Below, piece after piece: positions 32,367 through 63,158 of a stretch of DNA of 64,000 bases; position 1 is the stretch's first letter, and each line of letters starts with the position of its first letter. Position numbers and translations under genes: made by a program. Origin of the DNA: Cycloclasticus sp. (lineage in GTDB: Bacteria > Pseudomonadota > Gammaproteobacteria > Methylococcales > Cycloclasticaceae); the NCBI GenBank assembly GCA_002700385.1, contig PADC01000006.1, forward strand, positions 558,001 to 622,000, given 5' to 3'. The notes under the pieces were generated by a model. The model did not search any database. It was not told the DNA's origin and saw only the letters and a list, made by a program, of their open reading frames with translations.

Positions 32367-33179
32367 ATGGCATACTTAGAGCCAAGTGAATTTGCAACCA
32401 AAATGGTTGATGCTGGGGAACAAAAGATCTTCATGTCCACTAAAGATACGCTAGTACGGGCTTTTATGGCGGGCGCAATATTGGCTTTAGCCGCTTTTTT
32501 TGCGATTACGGTAATTGTTAAAACAGGCAGCCCTTTAGTCGGTTCCCTACTTTTTCCGGTAGGTTTCATTATGCTTTATCTTATGAAGTTTGACCTGTTA
32601 ACCGGTGTATTTACCTTGGTTCCGTTAACAATTCTTGATAAAAGGCCGGGTTGTACCGTCAAACAAATGCTTAGAAATTGGTGGTTAGTTTTTGTAGGAA
32701 ATTTCGCTGGGGCTTTAACCGTTGCTTTCTTTGCCTCGTTTATTTTAACTTATGGCTATAACACTGATGGAGGCGCGTTAGCTGCTAAAGTAAGCACCAT
32801 TGGTGAATCTAGAACCTTAGGCTATCAATCTCATGGTGCTGACGGATGGTTTACTATTTTTATCCGAGGCATGTTGTGTAACTGGATGGTATCAATGGGT
32901 GTTGTAGGTGCGATGATTTCAACATCGGCCACCAGTAAAATCATGGCCATGTGGATGCCGATCATGCTCTTCTTTTTTATGGGGTTTGAGCACTCTATTG
33001 TTAACATGTTCTTATTCCCATTTTCTATGATCATGGGCGGAGAATTTACCATTGTGGACTACTTTGTTTGGAACGAAATTCCAACGGCCTTAGGTAATTT
33101 GGTTGGCGGTTTCTTATTAGTTGGACTCCCACTATACTGGACGCATGTTAGAACAAACCCTGAGCGAAAAATTAACTAA
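32367..33179 (+). CDS. Formate/nitrite transporter family protein (FocA/NirC)
   Basis: MAGAILALAAFFAI, FVGNFAGAL, GFEHSIVNMFLFP motifs. Confidence 0.9.
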   Translation: MAYLEPSEFATKMVDAGEQKIFMSTKDTLVRAFMAGAILALAAFFAITVIVKTGSPLVGSLLFPVGFIMLYLMKFDLLTGVFTLVPLTILDKRPGCTVKQMLRNWWLVFVGNFAGALTVAFFASFILTYGYNTDGGALAAKVSTIGESRTLGYQSHGADGWFTIFIRGMLCNWMVSMGVVGAMISTSATSKIMAMWMPIMLFFFMGFEHSIVNMFLFPFSMIMGGEFTIVDYFVWNEIPTALGNLVGGFLLVGLPLYWTHVRTNPERKIN

Positions 33180-33248: not shown

Positions 33249-34961
33249 ATGAAAAAGCATTTACACGTTTCTATTGGCCAATTCACTCACCCAGGCGCCA
33301 AAGAAATTAATCAAGACTTCCACGGTGCGGTGACTCCGGGAGAACCTCTACTCAGTTCAAAAGGTATTACGGCTGCCATTGCAGATGGAATAAGCAGTAG
33401 CCGTGTTAGCCAAATTGCAAGTCAAACGGCTATAAACAGCTTCTTGCAAGATTATTATTCCACCTCTGAATCCTGGTCTGTCAAGAAATCTGCACAAACT
33501 GTTCTAAAGGCCATTAACTCTTGGCTTTATGCGCAAACGCAAAGCAGCGCTTACCGTTTTGAAAAAGACAAAGGTTATATTTGCACGTTTAGCGGCATTA
33601 TCTTTAAATCTCATCAGGCTCACCTATTTCATACAGGTGATTCCAGAATTTTCCAACTCATCGATTCACAGCTCAATCAATTAACATCTGATCATCGTCG
33701 CGTGATTGATGAACAAACCAGCTACCTTACACGTGCCATGGGCGTTCATGATTACGCTGAACTGGATTACCGACAAGTGCCTATTAGCGTTGGCGACATT
33801 TTTATTCTAGCGACCGATGGCGTCTATGAGCACATAAAAGATCATCACATCAGCGATATTATTCGCCAAGAGAGTCATCTTCAGCTGGCAGCAAAGCGTA
33901 TTGTGGAGGAAGCGTACGATGCCGGCAGTCAAGATAACCTCACTATCCAAATCATCAAAATAGAACAATTACCCGAACGAAACTTGAATGAAGTTCATCA
34001 GCAAGCGAGCTTACTACCCGCTGCGCCTCCAATACAGCCACGCATGGATTTTGAAGGGCATACCATTTTACGTGAAATTTACATCAGTAGCCGTAGTCAC
34101 GTTTACCTCGCGCAGAACAACGCCACTCAAGAAAAAGTTGTTATTAAAACCCCCTCTGCTGAAATGCGAAATGATGAAGCTTACCTTGAGAACTTCCTCA
34201 TGGAAGAATGGATTGCTAACCGCATCAATAACCCCCATGTCTTAAAGGCTATCGAATCCAAGCAAAAACGCCACTATCTCTACACCGCTACGGAATACAT
34301 AGAAGGTAAAACACTGGCTCAATGGATGATTGATAACCCTTATCCAAATATTGATACGGTACGCGGTATCGTCGAACAAATCGCCAAGGGATTACAGGCC
34401 TTTCACCGGCAAGAAATGGTTCATCAAGATTTAAGACCCAATAACATCATGATTGATAATATGGGTACGGTAAAAATTATTGATTTTGGCGCCACAAAAA
34501 TAGCTGGGGTGTCAGAAATTACTCAAAACAACGAAGGCATTATGGGCACAGCCCAATATACAGCGCCCGAATATTTCTTAGGGGAATCAGGAACAAACCG
34601 GTCAGATATTTTCTCTTTGGGTATTATTACGTATCAAATGCTGTCTGGCCAGCTGCCGTACGGCAACGCCGTATCAAAAGTCAGGAACCAAACAGCGTTG
34701 AGGCGGCTGTCATATACCCCCTTAAGAAACAGTGATAATAACATACAAGAATGGTTGGACTTGGCTATCAGCAAAGCCATACACCCAGAACCTTCAAAAC
34801 GTTATCAGGAAGTATCCGAGTTTATTCACGAACTAAAACGACCCAGTCAGCAATTTTTAAATCAGAAAAAGCCACCTTTAATGCAAAGAAACCCTGTTCT
34901 TTTTTGGCAGAGCACCTCAGCCGTTTTGTTTTTCCTATTACTGTGGGTGTTAGCTAAGTAA
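33249..34961 (+). CDS. Fused PP2C-type phosphatase / Ser-Thr protein kinase with C-terminal membrane anchor
   Basis: PP2C AAIADGISSS, FHTGDSRIF, LATDGVYEH; kinase VHQDLRPNNIMID, KIIDFGATK, GTAQYTAPEYF; C-terminal hydrophobic tail. Confidence 0.92.
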   Translation: MKKHLHVSIGQFTHPGAKEINQDFHGAVTPGEPLLSSKGITAAIADGISSSRVSQIASQTAINSFLQDYYSTSESWSVKKSAQTVLKAINSWLYAQTQSSAYRFEKDKGYICTFSGIIFKSHQAHLFHTGDSRIFQLIDSQLNQLTSDHRRVIDEQTSYLTRAMGVHDYAELDYRQVPISVGDIFILATDGVYEHIKDHHISDIIRQESHLQLAAKRIVEEAYDAGSQDNLTIQIIKIEQLPERNLNEVHQQASLLPAAPPIQPRMDFEGHTILREIYISSRSHVYLAQNNATQEKVVIKTPSAEMRNDEAYLENFLMEEWIANRINNPHVLKAIESKQKRHYLYTATEYIEGKTLAQWMIDNPYPNIDTVRGIVEQIAKGLQAFHRQEMVHQDLRPNNIMIDNMGTVKIIDFGATKIAGVSEITQNNEGIMGTAQYTAPEYFLGESGTNRSDIFSLGIITYQMLSGQLPYGNAVSKVRNQTALRRLSYTPLRNSDNNIQEWLDLAISKAIHPEPSKRYQEVSEFIHELKRPSQQFLNQKKPPLMQRNPVLFWQSTSAVLFFLLLWVLAK

Positions 34962-50047: not shown

Positions 50048-50122
50048 ATGAAGTGGGAAACACCAACATACAAAGACTTACGTTTCGGTTTTGAAGTAAC
50101 GATGTACATTTATAACCGATAA
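50048..50122 (+). CDS. pqqA: PQQ precursor peptide PqqA (absent from ORF track)
   Basis: MKWETPTYKDLRFGFEVTMYIYNR, with the E-x3-Y core EVTMY used for PQQ; GGAG RBS upstream. Confidence 0.95.
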   Translation: MKWETPTYKDLRFGFEVTMYIYNR

Positions 50123-50137
50123 ATACAGACAGGCATT

Positions 50138-50165
50138 AAAAAGGGTCCTTATAAGAGCCCTTTAT
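50138..50165. terminator. Hairpin terminator/attenuator immediately after pqqA
   Basis: AAAGGGtcCTTATAAGagCCCTTT with A/T-rich flanks; also faces the convergent PP2C gene. Confidence 0.6.
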
Positions 50166-50395
50166 AATGCTATAAATTCAATAACCTTGAGGATGAAAGG
50201 CTTTAAAGTCATATTAACAGCCTCAGACTAGTAGGCCCAGTGTTCAGTCACAGATAGAGATTTTGGTAGGCTAATTTGCCCCCCCTTCCTAATAAACAAG
50301 CTCTCAATGCTTAACCTTCAGGGACAACTGATTTCAACATCTCGAAGGTTTTAATACTCTAACAACATTATTAAATTTAGCACTTCACCTTGTAG

Positions 50396-51166
50396 CTAAA
50401 ACCAAAAGCCTTTACTTAATGAAACAACAACAACCGAAGCATTATCTTGGTTAGGTGCTTTAGCAAACTCAACGGCAGTTAAGAGTTTTGATGAAATAAA
50501 GTCTGGTGATTTATTTTTATTCTTATCTATTATAGTTTCAATGTCTTTTAACGTTATAGTATCTAAGCCATCTGAAGCTAAAACCAACTTATCTTTAGAA
50601 GATAAATAATTTAGTTTACTTTGAATATCGACTAAAGGAATATCATCAACCGAAACGTAGCTTCTTAGAGCACTCCGCTGCGGATCAGATAAAGCCTCTT
50701 CTGTTTCTAAACGACCAATTTCAACTAGGCCATCAAGCACAGCAGCCATAGAATGGTCTTCATTTAGTTTTATAACCTCCCCTTTTCGATATAAATAAAG
50801 GTGGGAATCACCCACACTTAACCAATGTAAATCACTATCACTAACATAAATAGCCACGAGTGTTGTGCCCATATCAGGGGGTGCAGCGTTATCATTTACC
50901 TCAGCTTTGATGGCAAGCTGGGCCTCTGATAATGACTTTGCCAAGGCATCTGATGGCGTAAGCTTGGTCGAGGTAATAAATTCATTTACAAAAGCCGTAA
51001 CGACGATATGGCTGGCAAGCGCTCCTCCACTATGCCCCCCCATACCATCACACAAAACAACCAAACAACTATTCAAGCCTTTGAACTGCTCGGTACATAT
51101 CTCATAGTAATCTTCTTGGTAGTCTCGACTTCCTTGAATCATATTACCCTGTATTTTTAATTCCAT
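50396..51166 (-). CDS. PP2C-family protein phosphatase
   Basis: SRDYQEDYYEI, VVLCDGMGGHSGG, VGDSHLYLYR, LASDGLDTI, QDNASVVVV. Confidence 0.93.
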   Translation of the reverse strand: MELKIQGNMIQGSRDYQEDYYEICTEQFKGLNSCLVVLCDGMGGHSGGALASHIVVTAFVNEFITSTKLTPSDALAKSLSEAQLAIKAEVNDNAAPPDMGTTLVAIYVSDSDLHWLSVGDSHLYLYRKGEVIKLNEDHSMAAVLDGLVEIGRLETEEALSDPQRSALRSYVSVDDIPLVDIQSKLNYLSSKDKLVLASDGLDTITLKDIETIIDKNKNKSPDFISSKLLTAVEFAKAPNQDNASVVVVSLSKGFWF

Positions 51167-51176
51167 GCTGCTTTGC

Positions 51177-51776
51177 CTAACTTAACTCCCAATCAAAAGC
51201 ATCATCACACAACTGTACAAATTTAAGTGTGGTGCTACCAACTGAGATAGTCATATTATTATTCAGCTCACAAGATGATAAGACAGGTTGGTCTTCTAAA
51301 TAGGTTAGGTTTTGACCGCCACCATGCTGGATATAAAACTTTTTATTCTTATGGTCATAAGCTATTTGACAGTGGGCATTTCTAGAAATCTCTTCATCAC
51401 CAAAATCAAGTTTTACGCCCGCTTTTTCACCACGCCCAATAGAGTTCAGCCCATACCCAAGTGGTAAACTCATCCCTCTTCCCGGTCCTTTCACTACTAC
51501 AAGCCAGCCCACAACAAACTCTGGATGATAACGATTAGCGCTGTTAGTAAGTGTGCTTTCTGATGCTACTTCGTTATTCGAAGTCGTCGGTCGCACTCTT
51601 CTTGTTACAGGATTAGTATCCGAGCTTTTAATACCCTGTGAAGCATCATCTGTATCGGCCGGGAGGCTCTCCGATGCTCCACCTTTCTTAATAGTTGCAA
51701 ATGCCCCTGCTTCACTCCCAACTCTCCGAGTTGGGTTATTAAAAAAACCACCTTTTGTACTATCATCATTTGACAT
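51177..51776 (-). CDS. FHA domain protein
   Basis: LPLGYGLNSIGRGEKAGVKLDFGDEEISRNAHCQIAYD. Confidence 0.87.
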   Translation of the reverse strand: MSNDDSTKGGFFNNPTRRVGSEAGAFATIKKGGASESLPADTDDASQGIKSSDTNPVTRRVRPTTSNNEVASESTLTNSANRYHPEFVVGWLVVVKGPGRGMSLPLGYGLNSIGRGEKAGVKLDFGDEEISRNAHCQIAYDHKNKKFYIQHGGGQNLTYLEDQPVLSSCELNNNMTISVGSTTLKFVQLCDDAFDWELS

Positions 51777-51796
51777 AATTTTCTCCTATACTGTCA

Positions 51797-53188
51797 TCAG
51801 CGTCGCGTTGCGATTGTTTTCCGATATCTACTATTCGGATACAGTCTTGTATAAATTGTAAACGCCTCATCGGTATTGATCTTAGAGGCTACCGTAAAAT
51901 CCCTTTTTTCTTGCTCAGATGAAAATTTGTTAGGTTGTTCAGAAGGGGCTTGGGCTACTTTATTAGGAACAACCGAATTACCCCTTGAGTCACTGTTTAA
52001 CTCTCTAACTTTTTGCTCGACCTTCGGCTTAATAGACGGAGCATTAACTAGTTGCTCATTGCTCTTTTTACTTCCAATATTGCTTGCCATATAGACCATT
52101 ATTAGACCAACGCAGACTCCAATGATCGCAATAACCGCGTTCATATTAAAACTCTTTTCAATATTGGCAGGTTTAGCCTTACTTTTTACCTCTCTATGCT
52201 GGTGTTTAACTAATTCTTTTTTATCTAATTTCTTTGTTGCCTGACTCTCTTTACCCTGTGAAGATTGAGTTAAACCAACACCTTTTTTTATTACATCTAA
52301 CCATTCATTAACTGTTTGCGGTCTATCTATTTCTTCTGGTGATAAGGCCCAGTCTAAAGCAGAAAGAAACCCCTTATCTTCATCTTCCAAGCGATCTACA
52401 AGCGTTGGCAATGTATCGTTTCGTATGCGTTCGGTCGCTTCAAAATGCGATAAGTTTTCACCGGTTAAACACACATAAGATACGGCTGCTAGAGCATAAA
52501 TATCAGTCCACGGTCCTTGATTTCCTCGTGTTGAATATTGTTCAATGGGCGCGTAACCAGGTGTCAGTATTGTAGAAATTGACTGTGAACGAACACCAAT
52601 TGCTTGCCGAGCTGCACCAAAATCAATCAAGACAGCGCTTCCATTATCTTTAACACGTATATTTCCAGGCTTTATGTCGCGATGAAGCATGCCAGCCGAA
52701 TGAACAAAAACCAGCCCCTCAGCAATTGGTACAATTATTTTTTTTACTTCAGCAACTGATAGTAGACCATCTTTTTGAATCACATCAGAGACATCACGGC
52801 CATCTGCAAAATCCATGATGATATAAGCTGTATTGTTTCTCTCTATAAAACGAATAACACGAATAATACTTGCATGTTCAAAAAGAGCTAATGTTCTAGC
52901 CTCTTGAATAAACCGACTCAAGCCCCAACTATATTCATCAACATCTTCAAGAACACGTGTTTTGGGAGAAACATGCATGGCATGGTCTCGAGCAGCTAAA
53001 TTAAAAGGAAAGTACTCCTTTATAGCTACATACCGATTCAATTGCTGATCAAATGCCTTATAAGTAATCCCAAAACCTCCCGAGCCGATTTCATTCTCAA
53101 TAATATAATCGTCTAGTTGGTAGCCTTTAGGAAGTACTTGCGTTGGCGATACGGCTTCATTATTTTGAATGCGGTCTTGGTTATCCAT
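51797..53188 (-). CDS. Membrane Ser/Thr protein kinase with TM and C-terminal extracytoplasmic tail
   Basis: IGSGGFGITYKAFD, VAIKEYFP, LHRDIKPGNIRV, LIDFGAAR; TM MNAVIAIIGVCVGLIMVYMA. Confidence 0.95.
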   Translation of the reverse strand: MDNQDRIQNNEAVSPTQVLPKGYQLDDYIIENEIGSGGFGITYKAFDQQLNRYVAIKEYFPFNLAARDHAMHVSPKTRVLEDVDEYSWGLSRFIQEARTLALFEHASIIRVIRFIERNNTAYIIMDFADGRDVSDVIQKDGLLSVAEVKKIIVPIAEGLVFVHSAGMLHRDIKPGNIRVKDNGSAVLIDFGAARQAIGVRSQSISTILTPGYAPIEQYSTRGNQGPWTDIYALAAVSYVCLTGENLSHFEATERIRNDTLPTLVDRLEDEDKGFLSALDWALSPEEIDRPQTVNEWLDVIKKGVGLTQSSQGKESQATKKLDKKELVKHQHREVKSKAKPANIEKSFNMNAVIAIIGVCVGLIMVYMASNIGSKKSNEQLVNAPSIKPKVEQKVRELNSDSRGNSVVPNKVAQAPSEQPNKFSSEQEKRDFTVASKINTDEAFTIYTRLYPNSRYRKTIATRR

Positions 53189-53209
53189 TATGTGTCAGAA
53201 TTTCATATG

Positions 53210-53602
53210 TTATTTTGGTTTTGCAAATAAGCCTATTATTTTCCAGTTCCAGCCTTTTTCACTGGCTCCCGCAAAATAAAGCTTCTTATTTACCGTTCCT
53301 TTGACAGTAATTCGTCTAATAGATGGGCAGTCGATACTGACAACCGCACGAAGTTGCCCAATTAATCGCTGCAACTCTACTCTATCCCCATCAAAAACCC
53401 TTGGGTCTTGTGATTGAATATCGAATTTTGCTTCATAAGCTGACCGGCAATCTATGTTCAGTAAATAGGCATTCATTCCTAAATGAGACATAACTGGTGT
53501 AGCAGAAAAAGCATTTAAACTCATAGTGGAGAGGATCAAAAAGAAAAAGCATGATCGCCACTTTAAGGAATAAAAATGCAATATTTTATTCAATTTAAAC
53601 AC
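53210..53602 (-). CDS. Hypothetical exported protein
   Basis: 130 aa, hydrophobic N-terminus with AFSA signal-like cleavage site, two Cys in the mature part. Confidence 0.65.
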   Translation of the reverse strand: MFKLNKILHFYSLKWRSCFFFLILSTMSLNAFSATPVMSHLGMNAYLLNIDCRSAYEAKFDIQSQDPRVFDGDRVELQRLIGQLRAVVSIDCPSIRRITVKGTVNKKLYFAGASEKGWNWKIIGLFAKPK

Positions 53603-53620
53603 CCATATTATTTAAGTTAA

Positions 53621-54430
53621 CTAAGCTAACTTCCAAATTCCATTTCCTTGCTGGCATACTCTAATATCTTCTGTAAGCACGCCTTTTGATGTCGTCACCT
53701 CTTGACGCACAGTTTTACAAACACCGCTTGCTTGTACATTTACTTCGGACACGGAGCTAGTAGATGTTTGCGTATAGTTTACTGGTTCATTAGAAGGGTG
53801 CATTAAAGGGCTATAAACATAACCACTAGCGGTGCCATCTGGTAACTGAGAAATTAAAAACCACTTTTTATCTGGTAGCGCCTCGCCTATTACTTGTACA
53901 GATTCATTTCCCGATAATTTAGCAACGGTTTTATAGTCTGTTCCCGGACCACTACGCACATTAATTCGAGAGTTAGGGCTATAAGCTGCGCCGACTAACT
54001 TTAATGGAGGGGTTTTTTCAACTCTATCTTTTAAAACCCTAACTTTGACATTTTTATCTTGCCTTGTTTCTGGCACACTATCGACGACTCTAACTTGCCC
54101 TGTAACGCCCTGCTCACCTGAGAAAGCCACCGGTCTTCCACTTGCTGCTGATTGTTGCTGGGCTGCAAATAGCTTTTTTTGATCTTCTGAACTCAAAACC
54201 TTAGCAAATTGATCGCCAATATAGGTCCCCGCTGCTGCCCCAGCCATAACAATCGCTGCACGAACCAAAGGGTTGTCAACATTCTCTGCAAGCTTGGCGG
54301 CAAGAACACCACCACCTAAACCACCAACAACTTTGCTTATGCTCGACTTTTGTTCTTCTGTCATCCCCGCACAACCACTGAGTACAACGATTATCGACAA
54401 AATGAGATACAGCGATCTATTAAATTTCAT
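53621..54430 (-). CDS. Lipoprotein with glycine-zipper and SH3 domain
   Basis: Lipobox VLSGC; GGLGGGVLAAKL; SH3 RINVRSGPGTDYKTVAKLSGNESVQVIGE. Confidence 0.85.
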   Translation of the reverse strand: MKFNRSLYLILSIIVVLSGCAGMTEEQKSSISKVVGGLGGGVLAAKLAENVDNPLVRAAIVMAGAAAGTYIGDQFAKVLSSEDQKKLFAAQQQSAASGRPVAFSGEQGVTGQVRVVDSVPETRQDKNVKVRVLKDRVEKTPPLKLVGAAYSPNSRINVRSGPGTDYKTVAKLSGNESVQVIGEALPDKKWFLISQLPDGTASGYVYSPLMHPSNEPVNYTQTSTSSVSEVNVQASGVCKTVRQEVTTSKGVLTEDIRVCQQGNGIWKLA

Positions 54431-54466
54431 TTATTACTCTCCATTTATTAATAAATATAAAACCCA

Positions 54467-55876
54467 TTAACCAGCTATCACTTTAAACGAAACCGATCCC
54501 AATTTAACATTCGCACCATTATTGAGAGCGACACTTTCTTTAGCGGTTAGCTGCCGTCCGTTTACGTATGTACCATTAGTCGATTCCATATCTCGAATAA
54601 ATAAATCATTTCCTTGGGCGTAAAATACACAATGTTGCCTTGATATACTGTCATCATCTATCGCATATTTCCTATTGCTAGGGTCTCGGCCAACAATAAC
54701 TTCACCTTTGTATAACTCATCAACATTAATTACTATTCTATATCGTCGATTATCATCACCATAACCATCAAGAATTAAACTAGCTTTTGATTTTGATACA
54801 TCGGCACTATAGTTATTCGCTTTTTGAGTAGCCTCAGCTTTTTTTGAACTAGATGAAGGTATAGACCTAGAATATGTTTCGATGACACGAGCAACCTTTT
54901 TTTTGCCTGATGGGCTTCGCATTGCATAAAGCACCAGTAAACTCATCATCACAAAGCCTATTGCAGCTATAATAAAACCTTCTTTAATTACCCCGCTCAG
55001 CTTTTCGTCAGAGCTTAGACACTCATCGTCATCAAGCGTGTAAGTTATATTCCTTCCACTCAGAATTTTTACCAACTCACGAACATCGGTTGCATAATAA
55101 AAACCGGCCGCAAAAGTTCCACCCGTTTTACGGCCTTTATTATCATATACAGTATCAAATGCACCCTGAGTATTGATACCTATCACTCTCTGACAACCAT
55201 CAATTAATGGTCCACCGCTATTTCCTTTATTTATAAATGCACTATGCTGAACTAGCCTTAAAGGCGCGCCTCCTTTCCTCCAAACACCATTTTCTATAAG
55301 TCGCCCTAGCACACCAGAACTAAATGTTGATTCAGCAACAATATCAGAGGTTCTTATTGTTTTTGAGTCCGCAACGCCAGGGAACCCAACAGCACGAACA
55401 GCTTTACCTTTTTCTGGCAAATTGCTTGTTAACGTAATTGGTGATAACTGCAATGATCTCAATGCATCTTTTTTAATCAATAAAATAGCTAAGTCCAGAT
55501 CAGAAGAGCTCCAAATAACCTCAGCATTGGGCCTTTTTATAATGCTTTCCAACCCAAGGGATTGTCCATCTGGCACGACAGAAAATAAAGCTCCACCCTG
55601 AACCACATGATTGTTAGTAACAACATAACCACCATTATTTATTACAAACCCAGTTCCATGCCCTGTGCCCGATACTTTGCCTTTACGAAAAGATACTGTA
55701 TGCACTTTAACAATCGATGTTGTAAAAGCTTTACTCTCCGCGAATGCATATGAAGGATATGCGTAAATGGGTATTAGTAATATAACTAGACTTATTAGCT
55801 TTAATTGCCAGCGATTTAAAGCATACATCAATGGAATCAAGCGCATTAAATACCTCCTAAGATACTCAACGTACAT
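54467..55876 (-). CDS. Trypsin-like serine protease - TM - FHA protein (intact catalytic triad)
   Basis: H in VTNNHVV, D in SSDLDLAIL, S in NKGNSGGPLID; TM; FHA VGRDPSNRKYAIDDDSISRQHCVFY...NGTYVNG. Confidence 0.9.
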   Translation of the reverse strand: MYVEYLRRYLMRLIPLMYALNRWQLKLISLVILLIPIYAYPSYAFAESKAFTTSIVKVHTVSFRKGKVSGTGHGTGFVINNGGYVVTNNHVVQGGALFSVVPDGQSLGLESIIKRPNAEVIWSSSDLDLAILLIKKDALRSLQLSPITLTSNLPEKGKAVRAVGFPGVADSKTIRTSDIVAESTFSSGVLGRLIENGVWRKGGAPLRLVQHSAFINKGNSGGPLIDGCQRVIGINTQGAFDTVYDNKGRKTGGTFAAGFYYATDVRELVKILSGRNITYTLDDDECLSSDEKLSGVIKEGFIIAAIGFVMMSLLVLYAMRSPSGKKKVARVIETYSRSIPSSSSKKAEATQKANNYSADVSKSKASLILDGYGDDNRRYRIVINVDELYKGEVIVGRDPSNRKYAIDDDSISRQHCVFYAQGNDLFIRDMESTNGTYVNGRQLTAKESVALNNGANVKLGSVSFKVIAG

Positions 55877-57315
55877 CGCACTTCACCAAACTCTACTATA
55901 TCTCCAGCGATAATAATTAAACCCTCAGGCCCAACCGGTTGCTTATTTACTTGTGTTCCACCAGTAGAGCCCAGGTCGATAATATTTAAACGGTTGTCTT
56001 TAACAAATAACCGAGCATGTTCTCGACTGACAGTGTCATCTGCAATCACTACCTGGGAAAGATCAGGATTTCTGCCAACAACTAGACCCTTTTTTCGTTG
56101 CATTAAGTCCTTTCCTAAAACAATAAAAGCCACCGGTGCACCTGAAGAATCAACCCCCTCAAACCGACAGTCGCCAAAGCTAGCTGTTGCTGCTTTCAAT
56201 TCTTCTTTTGCTAGCCGTGAGCTTTTTTTCTTATTAATCAGTAGCAATAAAATGATAAAAATGGCAACGGCTATTGCGCCGACAACAGACCAAAAAAGAA
56301 TTTTATTATCTTCTTTTATTTCGATATTTTCTGTGCCTAAACTTTCTGCTTTTGTGTTTATATTAGAAACAATCTCAGTGATATCACTACGACCTTTTTC
56401 CGCCTCTTTCCTGGCCTGTTTTTCTTTCTCAACTTGCTTTTCCGCCTCTTTTATTTTTTTCTTAGCCTTATTTATTTGTGCCTGTTGTTTTATTTGTGCC
56501 TGTGCTTGTTGCTCTATAGCACTTAAACAAGGCTTATCTGCAACTTTTGTTACTATGTTTGATGCCGATAATTCTGCAGTGAGTATGCTGATATCAATCA
56601 CCTCAACACCTGTTGGCAGATGAGGTTTCCAAAGTTGCTTTAAAGTCATCTCTCTCTTTGGGCTCACGATTCCAAGCAACTCACCACACCGATTAACTAC
56701 CGGTGCGCCATACCCTCCTCTACCAATAGAAGCAATCAAACTATAGCGCCCATCAATAGCACCAGACCCGTTTAAAAGGGCCTTAGCGAAACTTTTATTA
56801 TGGAGCTCCGAAGCAACAAACTTAGGCCGCTTAGAAAAGCTAAAGAACGACCCTCTTGCCCTTTCTATTGACAAGCTCCAGTAGCCTGCAATTTCTAATG
56901 AATCATTATTTGATACAGAGTTTAAAGCAATTTTTACAGGCTCCTGCTGTAAAGTACTTGAGCGAAGTATTGCTAAATCAGTAACCTCATTTTTGGAAAT
57001 AATAGCTGCGCTTTTATTTAGACTGTCATCACCTTGAAGAACAACTCGATCCGCATACGCTAATAAATGCGCGCTCGTTATCACTACGCCATCTGTTGTG
57101 ACGACGACTCCGCTACCTTGATTCAATAATTGATCGCCTTTATAGGCAAGAACTTGGACTACGCTATCAGCCCATTGCTTAACCGGCTGGTCAGTAGTTT
57201 TTGTAGGATTGTTGGCAAAAGCCGATGACACAGAAAACAAGAGAGAAAATAACAAACAAAACAAGCATTTATTAAGCTGTACGCAAAAATAAAATACTTT
57301 ATTAGACGTAACCAT
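55846..57315 (-). CDS. Trypsin-like pseudoprotease - coiled coil - TM - FHA protein
   Basis: H in VITSAHLL and D in VTDLAIL retained; Ser motif is GRGGYGAPVV; TM IKEDNKILFWSVVGAIAVAIFIILLLLI; FHA VVGRNPDLSQVVIADDTVSREHARLF...GSTGGTQVN. Confidence 0.88.
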   Translation of the reverse strand: MVTSNKVFYFCVQLNKCLFCLLFSLLFSVSSAFANNPTKTTDQPVKQWADSVVQVLAYKGDQLLNQGSGVVVTTDGVVITSAHLLAYADRVVLQGDDSLNKSAAIISKNEVTDLAILRSSTLQQEPVKIALNSVSNNDSLEIAGYWSLSIERARGSFFSFSKRPKFVASELHNKSFAKALLNGSGAIDGRYSLIASIGRGGYGAPVVNRCGELLGIVSPKREMTLKQLWKPHLPTGVEVIDISILTAELSASNIVTKVADKPCLSAIEQQAQAQIKQQAQINKAKKKIKEAEKQVEKEKQARKEAEKGRSDITEIVSNINTKAESLGTENIEIKEDNKILFWSVVGAIAVAIFIILLLLINKKKSSRLAKEELKAATASFGDCRFEGVDSSGAPVAFIVLGKDLMQRKKGLVVGRNPDLSQVVIADDTVSREHARLFVKDNRLNIIDLGSTGGTQVNKQPVGPEGLIIIAGDIVEFGEVRCTLSILGGI

Positions 57316-57696
57316 AGATAAAATCCTTTTTAACTAAACAAACTCACTGTATTAACTTTTTGTAACTCAAAAGTTTTTAAAAGCATAACTGAAAAAAAGA
57401 ATACAGTTATTTATTAGAACTAACAATATGTAATACGTAGATTAACTACAAGTAACCATTTCGGTTATTTAAAAATGAATGCAACCACCCGACACAAACA
57501 AGGCAATTTAAAGCTCTTAATATCTACACTTCTTAAAATAAAAAACTCTTATCTTCGGACTGATTAATACATTGTTTACTATTTATCAGGCTTATGACTG
57601 CAAACAGATCTTTCATGTGAATCTAGAAATATTCATTGACTCGTTACCCCCATATCTCATTATTATTGCGTTTTTTTTCGGCAGTTCTTCAAAGAA

Positions 57697-58788
57697 TTAA
57701 CTCAAACTACTGACCCGAACCAATGGAAACTGCAAAGAAACTTTAAACCCTGGTCTCGTATTTTCGATGTGTAATTTTGCTCCATGCCGAATAGCTACAG
57801 CTTGCACAAACCTTAGTCCAAACCCATATCCGGCAACTTTCCCTTGTTGCGCTTGTTGTAAAATTGTATTTAAATCATCTGAATCAGCACCTCTCCCTGA
57901 GTCTGAAACAGCAACTACAGCCCTACCATTATCTATAAAGACGTCAATAGCCACTTGACTGTTAGCAGGTGCATACTTCAATGCATTATTAAGTAGATTT
58001 GTGATGGCATTGATTAACAAATTCTCCTGCCCAAGTATTTTCGCGGAATTTTCAGGCTTAACGAGCTCCAGTTGAGCATCATCGAAAGCATCTTGATATA
58101 GCTTTGCTGCTGTTAAGGCTATTTCGCATAAGTCCACCTCACGCATTACACTATCCGTACTAGACTCAATCTTCGAAAGCTCTAAAATTTCTCGTAATAG
58201 AATAAGAAGAGCTTTCGCTGAGTCAGCCATTTCAAGTTGATCTTTTTTAGTAGCCAACTCGTGAAGGTGACTAAGTTCTTTATTTATTTCGTGTGCAGCC
58301 ATTTGACTTACTGCCTCAAGCCCCATCATCAGCCGCGTATTTTCATCCAACGCTCTATTTATATACCGCGCTAACTCAGCGAGCTCATCTTTTTTATTGA
58401 TCTCTTTCTCCGCAATTCTTTTGTTAAACATTCCACTTTGAACCTTAGATAGCACCTTATTCATTTGCTCAACTCTGCGGCTAAATTGCCTATTAACAAA
58501 AAGAACAAGTAATGTTAGTACTCCCGCAACAATTCCTATCGTTGTCGCAATATTAGAGAATACTTCCTTACTTTTAAGCAAATACGCTTGTTCAAGCTCA
58601 TAGTAAAAATACTTTTTTTTATCAGGAGAGAGAGAAACCGTATTTTTTTGCAGCTCACTTTTGACAATATTATCCGTCAACACTTTAAGACTAAAAACTG
58701 TTATCAACGTTGTTAGTAACACCAAGGTCACTAATAAAAGGTGAATTGCCCGAAACATTCGTTTAGGTTTTTTTGAAATATTAATCAC
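57697..58788 (-). CDS. Sensor histidine kinase
   Basis: Two TMs, HAMP-like region, H box MAAHEINKELSHL, N box LLNNALKYAP, DSGRGAD. Confidence 0.87.
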   Translation of the reverse strand: MINISKKPKRMFRAIHLLLVTLVLLTTLITVFSLKVLTDNIVKSELQKNTVSLSPDKKKYFYYELEQAYLLKSKEVFSNIATTIGIVAGVLTLLVLFVNRQFSRRVEQMNKVLSKVQSGMFNKRIAEKEINKKDELAELARYINRALDENTRLMMGLEAVSQMAAHEINKELSHLHELATKKDQLEMADSAKALLILLREILELSKIESSTDSVMREVDLCEIALTAAKLYQDAFDDAQLELVKPENSAKILGQENLLINAITNLLNNALKYAPANSQVAIDVFIDNGRAVVAVSDSGRGADSDDLNTILQQAQQGKVAGYGFGLRFVQAVAIRHGAKLHIENTRPGFKVSLQFPLVRVSSLS

Positions 58789-59525
58789 TCCTGGTTATCT
58801 GCTTTTTTAAGCGTTAAGCGATACCCTAAGCGATTATTAATAATTAAGGGCGCATCCGGGAGTACTGATAAATTCCCTCGAAGTCTACTTAGCGCTGTGT
58901 TAATCACCGTTTCTTGAGGTGGCAAGCTCTTATAGCTTTCCCATACTGATCGCCATAAAACATCTCGGCTTATATATTCGCCTTTTAGTGAGACTAATAC
59001 TTTTAAAATTTCGAAAGATTGAGGTCGTAAAGAGATTGCTTCTCCATGCCAAAGAGCTGTGCGATTTATCGTACGAATTTCCATACCTTCCCAAACCTCA
59101 ACTGACTCTGGAACACGCTTACCCCGCACCCTTCTTGCTACAGCACGGAGACGCGCATTAAGTTCTTCAAGATCATAAGGTTTATTTATATAGTCATCGG
59201 CACCTAGATCTAGTGCTAAGATATGATCATGAGTAGCGCCTAAACGACTAGCAACTAAAATGCCTGGCGCTTTAGTTTCTAGCTCATTGAACCATCTTAT
59301 TAAAGCCAAACCATCTTCCGAATCGCCAAGCATACGATCAAGAATAACCAAGTCAAAAGCAACCTTGGCAAACTGTGCTCGTGCAGCTCTAACAGTTCCT
59401 ACAATGACAAACTCCCAGCCTAAACTAGTTACTTCTCGTTTCACTTGGTTTGCAAGTAGGTCATCGTCTTCTACAATCAATACTTTTAAATTTGCTATAT
59501 TTTTTTCCATTGATTTTAATTCCAT
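58785..59525 (-). CDS. OmpR/PhoB-type response regulator
   Basis: VLIVEDDDLLANQ, LVILDRMLGD, winged-helix C-terminus; overlaps the HK gene. Confidence 0.92.
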   Translation of the reverse strand: MELKSMEKNIANLKVLIVEDDDLLANQVKREVTSLGWEFVIVGTVRAARAQFAKVAFDLVILDRMLGDSEDGLALIRWFNELETKAPGILVASRLGATHDHILALDLGADDYINKPYDLEELNARLRAVARRVRGKRVPESVEVWEGMEIRTINRTALWHGEAISLRPQSFEILKVLVSLKGEYISRDVLWRSVWESYKSLPPQETVINTALSRLRGNLSVLPDAPLIINNRLGYRLTLKKADNQE

Positions 59526-59930
59526 TACCTATTTTTAAATCAAGCTTAAAGAACAGAAAAGTTCAAAAAAAAGGAATGAGCTTTATAAAAAACATCTCTA
59601 TCTATGTCTCTTAAACTAATCGTTAACTTTTGTTTATCACAAGGTAATTCAAAATTTGTTTTAAATCAGCTTACCATTACGGTTATTTAAAGCATTTTGC
59701 ATTATAAAAAACTAGATACTTAGTTCTGCATCTATCAAGTTAATAGTGGAAAATTAGCACCCCGTCTGAAGAAAAAGGATATCCGAGTAGCCGATTAAAT
59801 ATTCATTCAAACATATGTATAAATATGCCACTTCACAGTAACGGCATCAATCTCGGCAAGCAATATCAAATTATTACCTCAATGGTTACTGGCAAAAATC
59901 TCGAATGACTATTACCTTGTCATAGTAAAA

Positions 59931-62729
59931 TTGATAACATCAAATGGAGTTGTAATGAAAATCCAACATCGTTTCTTTCTACTTTTCATGCTAATGCTAT
60001 CCGCTGCAGCCAGTGCACAAATAGATAACTTAACACCTCTCTATGAACAAGATAAATATGCTATTTATCCTTCTTCTCCATATTGGTGCTCAACTAGCAA
60101 CACAAAGTATAGCGATAACATTGAACTTAATATTCTTTATGATGTGGAGAATGATAAAAGAGATACATTAATCTTTGGAGGAAACACAAATCAAGACTAC
60201 ATCCGCTTTTTTAACAAAGTAATATCTCCTATTATTGCAAACCATTGCCCTCACTATAGTGGTTTTAGTCCTAGTGCAAATTTACGATTTAACAATAAAG
60301 AAGATTGGAAAAAACATAATGGCAGATACTGGGATAGACTAACGTTTTCCTATGTTATTCGTAAAAAAAGTCAGGCTGGCAAAATTGCTGTCAGCTATAA
60401 AGGACAACTTACAGGGCGTTACTTAAGTGCTGAAGCTTTAGCCAAACAAAAACAAGACAAAAATTTGATCGCCACTCAGGCCGCTGAAAATCGAAGTGAA
60501 GCAAAAAAGCAAGGGCATCCTTTCAAAGCATTAGCCGGAGGTGGATATTTAGATACTATCTATACAGGTGATTTTATCGCCCAAAATGAAGTTGCTTGGT
60601 ACTATCTTTCAAAAATAAAAAAAAGCAATCAAAATGATGCCGCAATGGGTGTCTTTCTCTCAATGCTTGGTTCGACATTTTCAACAACCAAAAAGGACAT
60701 GACGGTTTTAGAGGAAATCAGCATGTATTATTTGGCTCGCTCAGGCGAACGACGACCTAGTGATTGCTTTGACCCGGGCGCTATCAAACGCACATTTACA
60801 TATAATTACCCTGAAATAGTCTATGAAGATGGCTATAGAATTCCAGCCTCTCAACTAAAATCAGAATACACGATAAACCCTCAATTCATTCCACTTTGTG
60901 ACAGATTATGCGAAAAACAAGGCGTACTTTACGCTGTGGCAAATGGTATTAATGCCGGCATGAAGAGACTAGAGATTGCGGATCTTTATCGGGGTATTGA
61001 CGAAATGATCCAACATTATTCTTGTAGGAGCCCAGAAATTAAAAGATTCGAAGCCAACCTTATTAAATATAATGAAAAAGAGCTAAATCAGCCTTCAAAT
61101 ATTAGACGCAATACATTTAAAACAGTGCTTGAAGCGCCAGAGTCAACTTATATCCCTTATGCTCTTCAGCCTCATTCAGCCATTGCAGATAAATTTATGG
61201 CTGACAATGCTAAAAACCCAAATGTCGTCACTACACTTAGTGGTTTGCAATACATTATGCTAACGCAAGGGCATGGTAGGCAACCAAGTCCTGGCGATAT
61301 CGTCAATATCTATTATAAAGGCACTTTGGAAAACGGGAGAGTTATTGCAAAAAAATACGCCACAGGCACACCTTCAACTATATCCACCAACGGCTTAATT
61401 AAAGGCATGTCTGAAGCGGTATTATTGTTAAAACCTGGTGGTAGAATTAAAGTTTTTGTACCACCTCATCTTGGTTTTGGAGACAGCGCTAATGGAGTTA
61501 TTAATAAAGACTCCATTTTAATTTACGAAATAGAATTAGCCCCCTCTATAAACTCCCCTTCTCATATTTCGGAGCCGGCAAGAATAGTCCCCACCAAAAC
61601 CTTAAAGAAACTCACTGGCAATACCCGAAAACGAACATCGTTTACAACACAACCACAACAAAAACCACCTTCTCAAGTTAGAAAACCGGTTTCCGCTATC
61701 ATTCAATCTGCTAAAAACACTCAACCTGACAAAAAAACGCTGTATCTAGCATCAGAAGATCTCGAGATTACTAATAATTTTAAGTTCCCTGTAGACATTA
61801 CCTTAAATAGCGTCTTGGTTGATTTTTTGGCTGTTAAATTAGCGTCAGATCAGCTTGATAATAACAGCTGGTGGACAATGCTATCATCACGTTGGCGTTA
61901 TGAAAAATCCGAACTATCACCCATGGGTGGACATTTTTTTCATCCGACCGCTCAACAATTTTCCAATGATGATCTTGAAAATACTCTCATACATTTTAAA
62001 AATTGGATGTTAGAACAAAGTAATAAGTTACCAGAGATTATCTACATACCTGCGTCTGTAATGGTTGCTAAAGTTGGCAATACTACTCATGCAGTCCCTG
62101 CTGACGGTTGTGCGATTTTGGATGACAAAAAAAACCTTAGACCTCACCAATCCAAACTAACTAAGGCTCTATCACAATCACTTTTACCTAAGATGCAGAG
62201 CTGTCAGCAACGAATTAAGACTAACAGCGACGACTTAATGAGTTGTGTAATGGCACACCAAAGCGACCCAAGTTTTTGTGGACAACAAATAAAAAATAAA
62301 CTGACAAAATGTTTAGCTGAATCACCTCAAAACCACACCGATACATGGAACAAAATAAACGTCAAATGGGTTCAAAGTAATTTTAGTATAGCCCAATGTA
62401 ATGCTTATTTAAGACATGAAAAATTACGCACCTCGAAAAGGTTTCCAACAGACAACGGTTCTCTTCAATTTAAACCATCACAAATTACTGCTCGATTCAA
62501 TTTTGGCCAATCATTTAGCTTACCCTCTATAAAGGATAAACCCTTCAATTTAGAAAGGCCGCTAGAACAAGCGATATTAATGTTTAAAGTTAAAATACTT
62601 TCAGGAAAATTATCTTCTGTGCTTACAAAGAAAGGGCCTACCCTTCAGGTAAAAACAAAGATTATTAGCACAAAATACACTAAAGGAACTACTTACGGGT
62701 TAAAACCTATTCGGGGGGCGTCAAGCTGA
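59931..62729 (+). CDS. Large exported protein with central FKBP-like PPIase domain
   Basis: Signal peptide; residues around SPGDIVNIYYKGTLENGRVIAKKY...IKGMSEAVLLLKPGGRIKVFVPPHLGFGDSANGVINKDSILIYEIEL; likely start ATG 59955 (MKIQHRFFLLF). Confidence 0.83.
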   Translation: MITSNGVVMKIQHRFFLLFMLMLSAAASAQIDNLTPLYEQDKYAIYPSSPYWCSTSNTKYSDNIELNILYDVENDKRDTLIFGGNTNQDYIRFFNKVISPIIANHCPHYSGFSPSANLRFNNKEDWKKHNGRYWDRLTFSYVIRKKSQAGKIAVSYKGQLTGRYLSAEALAKQKQDKNLIATQAAENRSEAKKQGHPFKALAGGGYLDTIYTGDFIAQNEVAWYYLSKIKKSNQNDAAMGVFLSMLGSTFSTTKKDMTVLEEISMYYLARSGERRPSDCFDPGAIKRTFTYNYPEIVYEDGYRIPASQLKSEYTINPQFIPLCDRLCEKQGVLYAVANGINAGMKRLEIADLYRGIDEMIQHYSCRSPEIKRFEANLIKYNEKELNQPSNIRRNTFKTVLEAPESTYIPYALQPHSAIADKFMADNAKNPNVVTTLSGLQYIMLTQGHGRQPSPGDIVNIYYKGTLENGRVIAKKYATGTPSTISTNGLIKGMSEAVLLLKPGGRIKVFVPPHLGFGDSANGVINKDSILIYEIELAPSINSPSHISEPARIVPTKTLKKLTGNTRKRTSFTTQPQQKPPSQVRKPVSAIIQSAKNTQPDKKTLYLASEDLEITNNFKFPVDITLNSVLVDFLAVKLASDQLDNNSWWTMLSSRWRYEKSELSPMGGHFFHPTAQQFSNDDLENTLIHFKNWMLEQSNKLPEIIYIPASVMVAKVGNTTHAVPADGCAILDDKKNLRPHQSKLTKALSQSLLPKMQSCQQRIKTNSDDLMSCVMAHQSDPSFCGQQIKNKLTKCLAESPQNHTDTWNKINVKWVQSNFSIAQCNAYLRHEKLRTSKRFPTDNGSLQFKPSQITARFNFGQSFSLPSIKDKPFNLERPLEQAILMFKVKILSGKLSSVLTKKGPTLQVKTKIISTKYTKGTTYGLKPIRGASS

Positions 62730-62951
62730 TATTTCTCAATATATAAAACGAGTTAACTAAAACCCTGCCCTCCCATATCGACATACAAGATCAGGTTTCA
62801 GCACAAAACTGCAACCTAATGAAGCCTTTATTCTTTATTGTAAAGTTAGAACAATCACTCTCCGACTTTGTAGCGTTTATCTTTAGAAATGGTATTTACT
62901 CGCTACTCCTAGCAGTGTTGCTATAAAGGGTAATTTTGCCGAACAATTAAT

Positions 62952-63008
62952 AATGACCCCCTATATCAGACGATACGATAGAATACTATCGTATGCCTAA
63001 CGGTCATT
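62952..63008. repeat. Long imperfect palindrome upstream of pqqB
   Basis: AATGACC...ATACGATAG-aata-CTATCGTAT...GGTCATT; the inner 9-bp arms are perfect. Confidence 0.85.
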
Positions 63009-63158
63009 CTTAGAATCTGAATGATAGCGCAGCATTTTAATTAGCTTACTCATTTAACTAGGTTTTTTCTTTATTACGAAAAAAAATTTCAATACCCGTT
63101 TAATTAACTTTTACCATAAAATCGATTAGAACTCTAACTGACTCCTCTTATTAAATTT

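Follow-up and report, generated by a model that had tools for sequence, protein, structure and literature searches.

Ser/Thr phosphorylation, phosphothreonine-reading FHA domains and trypsin-like proteases have each been described in bacterial systems. In the type VI secretion system (T6SS), the Fha protein reads the membrane protein TssL after its phosphorylation by PpkA (PMC3953482), while GarA and OdhI are FHA proteins whose N-terminal ETTS motif can be phosphorylated (PMC8546545). In magnetosomes, the HtrA-type protease MamE is activated by MamO, a trypsin that has itself lost activity (PMC4794232). Here we describe an island of ten genes in a 64-kb stretch of Cycloclasticus sp. DNA (contig PADC01000006.1; the whole stretch is called the window) that encodes a membrane Ser/Thr kinase, a PP2C-type phosphatase and an FHA adaptor (FHA199) beside two proteins, TrypA and TrypB, each joining a periplasmic trypsin fold through a transmembrane (TM) segment to a cytoplasmic FHA domain. 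Coordinates follow the numbering of the window, and labels for loci (L) and genomes (G) are those used in the analysis. The island appears to encode an envelope-response module that regulates itself and in which threonine phosphorylation in the cytoplasm would control the assembly of a periplasmic protease with a pseudoprotease partner, a reading to which we assign a probability of roughly 0.45.

An earlier note on this DNA had described two trypsin-TM-FHA proteins, and this architecture was upheld by Pfam and by structural models, but only TrypA retains the residues of an active enzyme. Its triad is intact (H90, D128 and S220 in the numbering of the 469-residue protein, with the TM segment at about 293-319) in an alignment of 11 sequences, one of which is truncated ahead of the His. 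TrypB has lost the catalytic Ser, which is replaced by Tyr202, and reads GGYGAP in place of the GNSGGP of active enzymes; the pair is therefore a protease and a pseudoprotease rather than two proteases. TrypB also contains a coiled coil (266-325) and a TM segment at about 342-360. AlphaFold2 models (mean predicted local distance difference test scores of 80.6 for TrypA and 81.9 for TrypB) contain, for both proteins, a double barrel, a TM helix and an FHA domain at the end of the chain, and for TrypB a 60-residue coiled coil as well. Foldseek matched the TrypA model with Deg1, DegS and MarP, and the best matches of the TrypB model were with the DegS protease domain. No PDZ domain was matched in TrypA by Pfam or NCBIfam, its C-terminus being occupied by the TM segment and FHA domain. 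Two cysteines are conserved in the periplasmic part of both families and could form a disulfide.

Adjacent TrypB-TrypA tandems were found in five loci: the window, L065 (genome G095, from another gammaproteobacterial family), L075 (Robiginitomaculum), L078 (Sphingobium fluviale) and L240 (G849, of the same class as G775, which is most likely Alphaproteobacteria). The catalytic Ser is absent from all five TrypB proteins, which by our reading of the alignments have Tyr, Phe, Tyr, Glu and Leu there or close by, and several also lack the His or Asp. The Ser loop is retained in each of the 16 TrypA rows examined. In a 21-row tree with long branches the five TrypB proteins form one clade (support 97/94), and on these sequences the computation shows a single origin for TrypB.

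The association of these genes recurs in distant bacteria. Initial phmmer searches with the window kinase, PP2C, FHA and trypsin proteins as queries found FHA, PP2C and Ser/Thr kinase (STK) genes beside Tryp-TM-FHA genes in several genomes, including Burkholderiaceae, Robiginitomaculum, Akkermansiaceae (Verrucomicrobiota), Sphingobium and a Clostridiales metagenome-assembled genome. A related cluster is also present on the Azospirillum plasmid AZO_p4, the only plasmid case, and a plasmid-borne system was rejected. Trypsin-side searches provided 15 full-length Tryp-TM-FHA loci (L064-L067, L074-L078, L102 and L238-L242); PP2C and STK are both nearby in nine and at least one of them in 12, a count based on profiles built partly from these loci, whereas the phmmer queries above were not. 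Among the three loci with neither gene, two (L066 and L067) run into contig ends and L239 is a true orphan. PP2C or STK genes accompany none of the trypsin-only control loci from the same searches (0/74 and 0/7, or 0/81). The earlier note had proposed such a neighbourhood search, and had named two grounds for abandoning the set, namely that its genes fail to co-occur in other genomes or that it matches a system already characterised; co-occurrence was found and no characterised system matched, so the set stands.

Full-length Tryp-TM-FHA proteins are rare (5/385 genomes in the class of G775), and the FHA199 profile found matches in 12 of 399 Pseudomonadota genomes. PP2C is nearby in 12 of the 13 FHA199 loci outside the window, the other (L189) being cut by a contig end and containing the start of an STK gene, while TrypA adjoins FHA199 in only two of the 13. 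The kinase/FHA199/PP2C triad is therefore a core, combined with varied outputs. In other loci the partner kinases carry peptidoglycan-binding and FGE-type domains, which would fit envelope input in either an inside-out or an outside-in scheme. Several further neighbours of these relatives were observed. The triad adjoins genes for dynamin-like or other GTPases in L192, L193 and L195, a pairing that looks undescribed; MotA/TolQ/ExbB-like and single-TM vWA proteins, not present in the window cluster, are encoded in L065 (5494-6249 and 10625-11446), L076 and L238; exported Ppx/GppA-like proteins adjoin two related clusters (L078, 14060-15394; L064, 19441-20574); and the Sphingobium cluster also has an OmpR-type response regulator (RR) and a histidine kinase (HK)-like gene.

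The earlier note had counted FHA199 as a third FHA reader. The FHA domain was confirmed, but the protein looks like more than a reader, namely a GarA/OdhI-like adaptor with candidate phosphosites of its own. GarA and OdhI are the nearest solved structures to the FHA199 profile, a resemblance at profile level only (23.8 bits against the OdhI model, cut-off 200). The motif T-[RKQ]-x-[hydrophobic] occurs 24 times in the N-terminal regions of FHA199 proteins (~20 distinct sequences), compared with 4.1 expected and a maximum of 12 in 2000 shuffles. Controls were flat, with 3 copies against 4.5 expected when Ser was substituted for Thr and 5 against 4.1 with a one-residue offset. The window protein has two copies, with candidate phosphothreonines T16 (NPTRRV) and T58 (NPVTRRV). 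FHA domains often favour a hydrophobic residue at +3, so that T-R-x-[I/V] sites are reasonable FHA ligands, and the motif is plausibly a phosphothreonine ligand.

The ten genes form an island between pqqA (50048-50122, to the left) and pqqB (from 63159, to the right), whose products were confirmed as PqqA and PqqB by NCBIfam. In four congeners (G014, G007, G012 and G004) the matches to window positions ~50125-50163 and ~63148-63158 are only about 20-80 bp apart, and because both flanks adjoin in these genomes a 13-kb insert can be placed between the two genes. The G+C fraction is 0.382 for the island compared with 0.424 and 0.432 for the flanks. The insert separates pqqA from pqqB at a point 3' of the pqqA terminator. 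Another congener, G017, has a different 7.5-kb insert in the same place (L205, 3848-11392) with CsgG-like and LpoB-like lipoprotein genes; the pqqA-pqqB position has the look of a hot spot for insertions. A search for att-type repeats at the island ends found just a 12-bp AT-rich match, which is unconvincing. A congener of another species, G001, seemed to carry the island too but was rejected: its 13,228-bp contig C50 (L071) is 99.99% identical to the window and runs across the whole island into its pqqA and pqqB edges, G001 has a separate pqqB of its own (~80% DNA identity), and the contig is most likely mis-binned, so the island is counted in one genome of the genus. Elsewhere in the window, a PP2C-kinase fusion gene (33249-34961) beside a formate/nitrite transporter gene (32367-33179) represents a second Ser/Thr phosphorylation locus.

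The earlier note had also associated an HK/RR operon and a divergent FKBP gene with the set, and the island boundaries and shared operator sites bear this out. The candidate operator matches twice in the window against 0.03 expected, and its 19-bp core, TAAATAACCGWAATGGTWA, is present exactly twice in the whole 2.5-Mb genome, once ahead of the TrypB gene and once ahead of the RR gene, at a distance of 140-165 bp. The window RR may bind this operator. Genome-wide, the short dyad TAACC-N5-GGTWA shows no enrichment over a reversed-pattern control and was rejected as the mark of a genome-wide regulon, the 19-bp form alone being distinctive; for this reason the FKBP gene, preceded by a short dyad, is the weakest of the members proposed for the regulon. 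Across the genus, matches to the FKBP protein cover the FKBP domain only, save for the one on the doubtful contig of G001.

All ten open reading frames (ORFs) were recovered at the coordinates and on the strands of Table 1, with domains confirmed by Pfam. The seven same-strand, tightly packed genes reported before were confirmed as a run from 57315 down to 50396 with gaps of 10-36 bp, in the order TrypB-TM-FHA, TrypA-TM-FHA, SH3/glycine-zipper lipoprotein, U130, kinase, FHA199 and PP2C. In NCBIfam, all seven of these proteins score below the curated equivalog cut-offs. The listed TrypA ORF starts at 55876 (469 amino acids), but the start is very probably 55846, 30 bp further in, because an ATG there overlaps the TrypB stop (TAATG) behind AGGAGG. 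The kinase has intact VAIK, HRDIKPGN and DFG motifs, one TM segment at about 351-369 by hydropathy and a short periplasmic tail; Pfam found no PASTA repeats in it, and it scores 131.9 bits against the PknB PASTA kinase model (cut-off 450). The phosphatase matches an Stp1/IreP-like model at 7.2e-40, under the equivalog cut-off. U130 has no family match in Pfam or NCBIfam. The exported SH3 protein of the earlier note does carry an SH3_3 domain and can be further specified as a lipoprotein with a glycine zipper; a homologue of the same layout adjoins the Sphingobium cluster (26% identity, E 3e-4).

Table 1. Features of the island, in window coordinates.
Feature	Position	Strand	Evidence or remark
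Island with all ten genes	50165..63150	.	between pqqA and pqqB; boundaries approximate, ~13 kb
PP2C-type Ser/Thr phosphatase, 256 amino acids, cytoplasmic	50396..51166	-	PF13672 1.4e-12; DGMGG and NQDN motifs
FHA199, GarA/OdhI-like FHA adaptor, 199 amino acids, Thr-rich disordered N-terminus	51177..51776	-	PF00498 7.5e-8
Membrane Ser/Thr kinase, 463 amino acids	51797..53188	-	PF00069 5e-35
U130, small exported protein	53210..53602	-	signal-like N-terminus
SH3_3 lipoprotein, 269 amino acids, glycine zipper, C-terminal Cys pair	53621..54430	-	PF08239 3.4e-9; lipobox LSGC
TrypA: periplasmic HtrA-type protease domain, TM, cytoplasmic FHA	54467..55846	-	Trypsin_2 1.6e-21, FHA 1.2e-18
TrypB: pseudoprotease, coiled coil, TM, cytoplasmic FHA, 489 amino acids	55846..57315	-	Trypsin_2 5.6e-11, FHA 1.1e-14
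Candidate operator TTTAAATAACCGAAATGGTTA, dyad TAACC-N5-GGTTA	57453..57473	-	upstream of seven-gene operon
Histidine kinase, two TM, HAMP, HATPase_c; degenerate H-box AAHEINKEL	57697..58788	-	Pfam
OmpR/PhoB-family response regulator	58785..59525	-	PF00072 9.1e-16, PF00486 1.4e-9
Second candidate operator copy TTTAAATAACCGTAATGGTAA	59671..59691	-	upstream of RR-HK operon
Shorter dyad TAACCATTGAGGTAA, possible third site	59874..59888	-	43-57 bp upstream of FKBP gene
Exported protein, 932 amino acids, FKBP domain about 416-537	59931..62729	+	PF00254 7.2e-18

In the mechanism that we favour, the membrane kinase, countered by PP2C, would phosphorylate the T-R-x-[I/V] threonines of the FHA199 N-terminus and perhaps also itself. 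With their FHA domains in the cytoplasm, TrypA and TrypB would bind these phosphothreonines, which would bring the two membrane proteins together. TrypB could then act as an allosteric activator of TrypA or present substrates to it, as MamO does for MamE, and TrypA would cut one or several substrates in the envelope. The SH3/glycine-zipper lipoprotein and the periplasmic tail of the kinase are likely input or docking parts, and the HK/RR pair would turn on the island through the TAACC-N5-GGTTA operators. It is a tentative and rather doubtful further step to regard this as a new kind of transmembrane signalling, in which a cytoplasmic kinase would write phosphothreonine, FHA tails would read it and thereby join an active periplasmic protease to its dedicated pseudoprotease, and phosphorylation in the cytoplasm would directly switch extracytoplasmic proteolysis. 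Envelope proteases are usually seen as outside-in sensors, and TrypA and TrypB with their FHA readers would allow control in the opposite direction. Kinase/PP2C/FHA clusters, which in proteobacteria are numerous and for the most part orphans, would gain a defined output from such a module, and the tandem yields specific testable predictions on pairing, phosphosites and activation.

Several observations weigh against this mechanism. The island is convincing in only one genome of the genus, and TrypB is absent from most Tryp-TM-FHA loci and so is not essential to the wider family. The FHA domain of the window TrypB reads STGGT where others read STNGT, which may weaken phosphothreonine binding, and the shuffles behind the motif enrichment take no account of how closely the FHA199 sequences are related. 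MotA/TolQ-like and vWA membrane proteins, which the island lacks, are present in many relatives, for which reason the ancestral job may exceed proteolysis.

The main rival, which we consider unlikely, is that the module senses from the outside in, with TrypA acting like DegS and being activated by envelope damage. TrypA would then cut the kinase tail, TrypB or the FKBP and SH3 proteins and so change FHA/kinase complexes and the phosphorylation state, and TrypB would sense or shield substrate. The grouping of both protease domains with DegS/Deg1 by Foldseek, the short or peptidoglycan-binding periplasmic tails of the kinases and the link of the HK/RR pair to the island are all in keeping with such sensing; the PDZ domain, by which DegS senses misfolded porins, is however unmatched, and an FHA domain is a reader that acts without need of proteolysis. 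Phosphothreonine could instead serve to cluster FHA-tailed membrane proteins into an envelope complex, with the protease incidental or limited to processing the complex. Relatives' clusters do include vWA-TM-FHA and RDD-TM-FHA proteins and MotA/vWA genes, and the kinase/FHA/PP2C triad is also paired with dynamin-like GTPases, but the TrypA triad has survived very deep divergence, with decay of TrypB on a single occasion, which argues for selection on catalysis and makes a pure scaffold rather improbable.

A lineage-restricted island at a variable site, with some relatives near integrase or transposase genes, might also be expected of a defence or competition module. We consider this improbable, as PADLOC matched only generic components (kinase and trypsin) and no specific defence component, there is no nuclease, toxin or NTPase effector, and possession of its own two-component control suggests regulation; identity with a known anti-phage defence system was rejected on the unspecific PADLOC matches. 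It is very improbable that the genes are unrelated neighbours delivered jointly: although the island is mobile and the accessory U130, HK/RR and FKBP genes vary among relatives, co-occurrence was 9/15 against 0/81, the TrypB-TrypA order is identical in five loci and the shared operator is unique to the island operons. For the core (Tryp-TM-FHA, FHA199, STK and PP2C) recurrence argues against chance; U130 and the FKBP gene may still be chance neighbours.

The membrane-bound phosphorylation module resembles the PpkA/PppA/Fha set of T6SS in that a membrane Ser/Thr kinase, a PP2C phosphatase and an FHA reader occur together (PMC3953482), and differs from it in that the island FHA readers are fused to periplasmic protease folds. 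As in the earlier note, no T6SS structural gene was seen: a genome search, aimed at the marker VipB (PF05943) only, found none, with a control that finds the E. coli protein, and identity as a T6SS regulator was rejected on this result. GarA/OdhI with PknG may share with FHA199 the plan of a small FHA protein that can be phosphorylated in an N-terminal Thr motif (PMC8546545), the motif being ETTSVF in the former and TRx[I/V] in FHA199. Like DegS/HtrA and MarP, TrypA has an HtrA-type (S1C) fold, a membrane anchor and a periplasmic location, but the Tryp proteins have no PDZ match and carry a C-terminal TM segment and FHA domain; they score 50.2 and 53.5 bits against the MarP model (cut-off 250) and miss every protease equivalog cut-off. 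A further parallel to the tandem is MamE/MamO, an active HtrA-type protease with a degenerate trypsin that activates it, for which the accessible part of the source describes no kinase, PP2C or FHA partner, unlike the island (PMC4794232); MamE/MamO models match the island proteins weakly, far under cut-off. The vWA/MoxR and NucA-trypsin conflict systems combine trypsin-like, kinase, PP2C, vWA and FHA domains in varied mixes, with FHA sporadic and no trypsin-TM-FHA protein with STK/PP2C in the accessible part of that account (PMC7159879). Nor was a description of this combination found in the literature searched, most subscription journals lying outside its coverage, and with its Pfam domains and recurrence in distant genomes the set proposed in the earlier note is real and apparently undescribed. 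Kinase/PP2C/FHA signalling is thus already known, whereas the protease/pseudoprotease output pair is distinctive and the combination is new in the literature searched.

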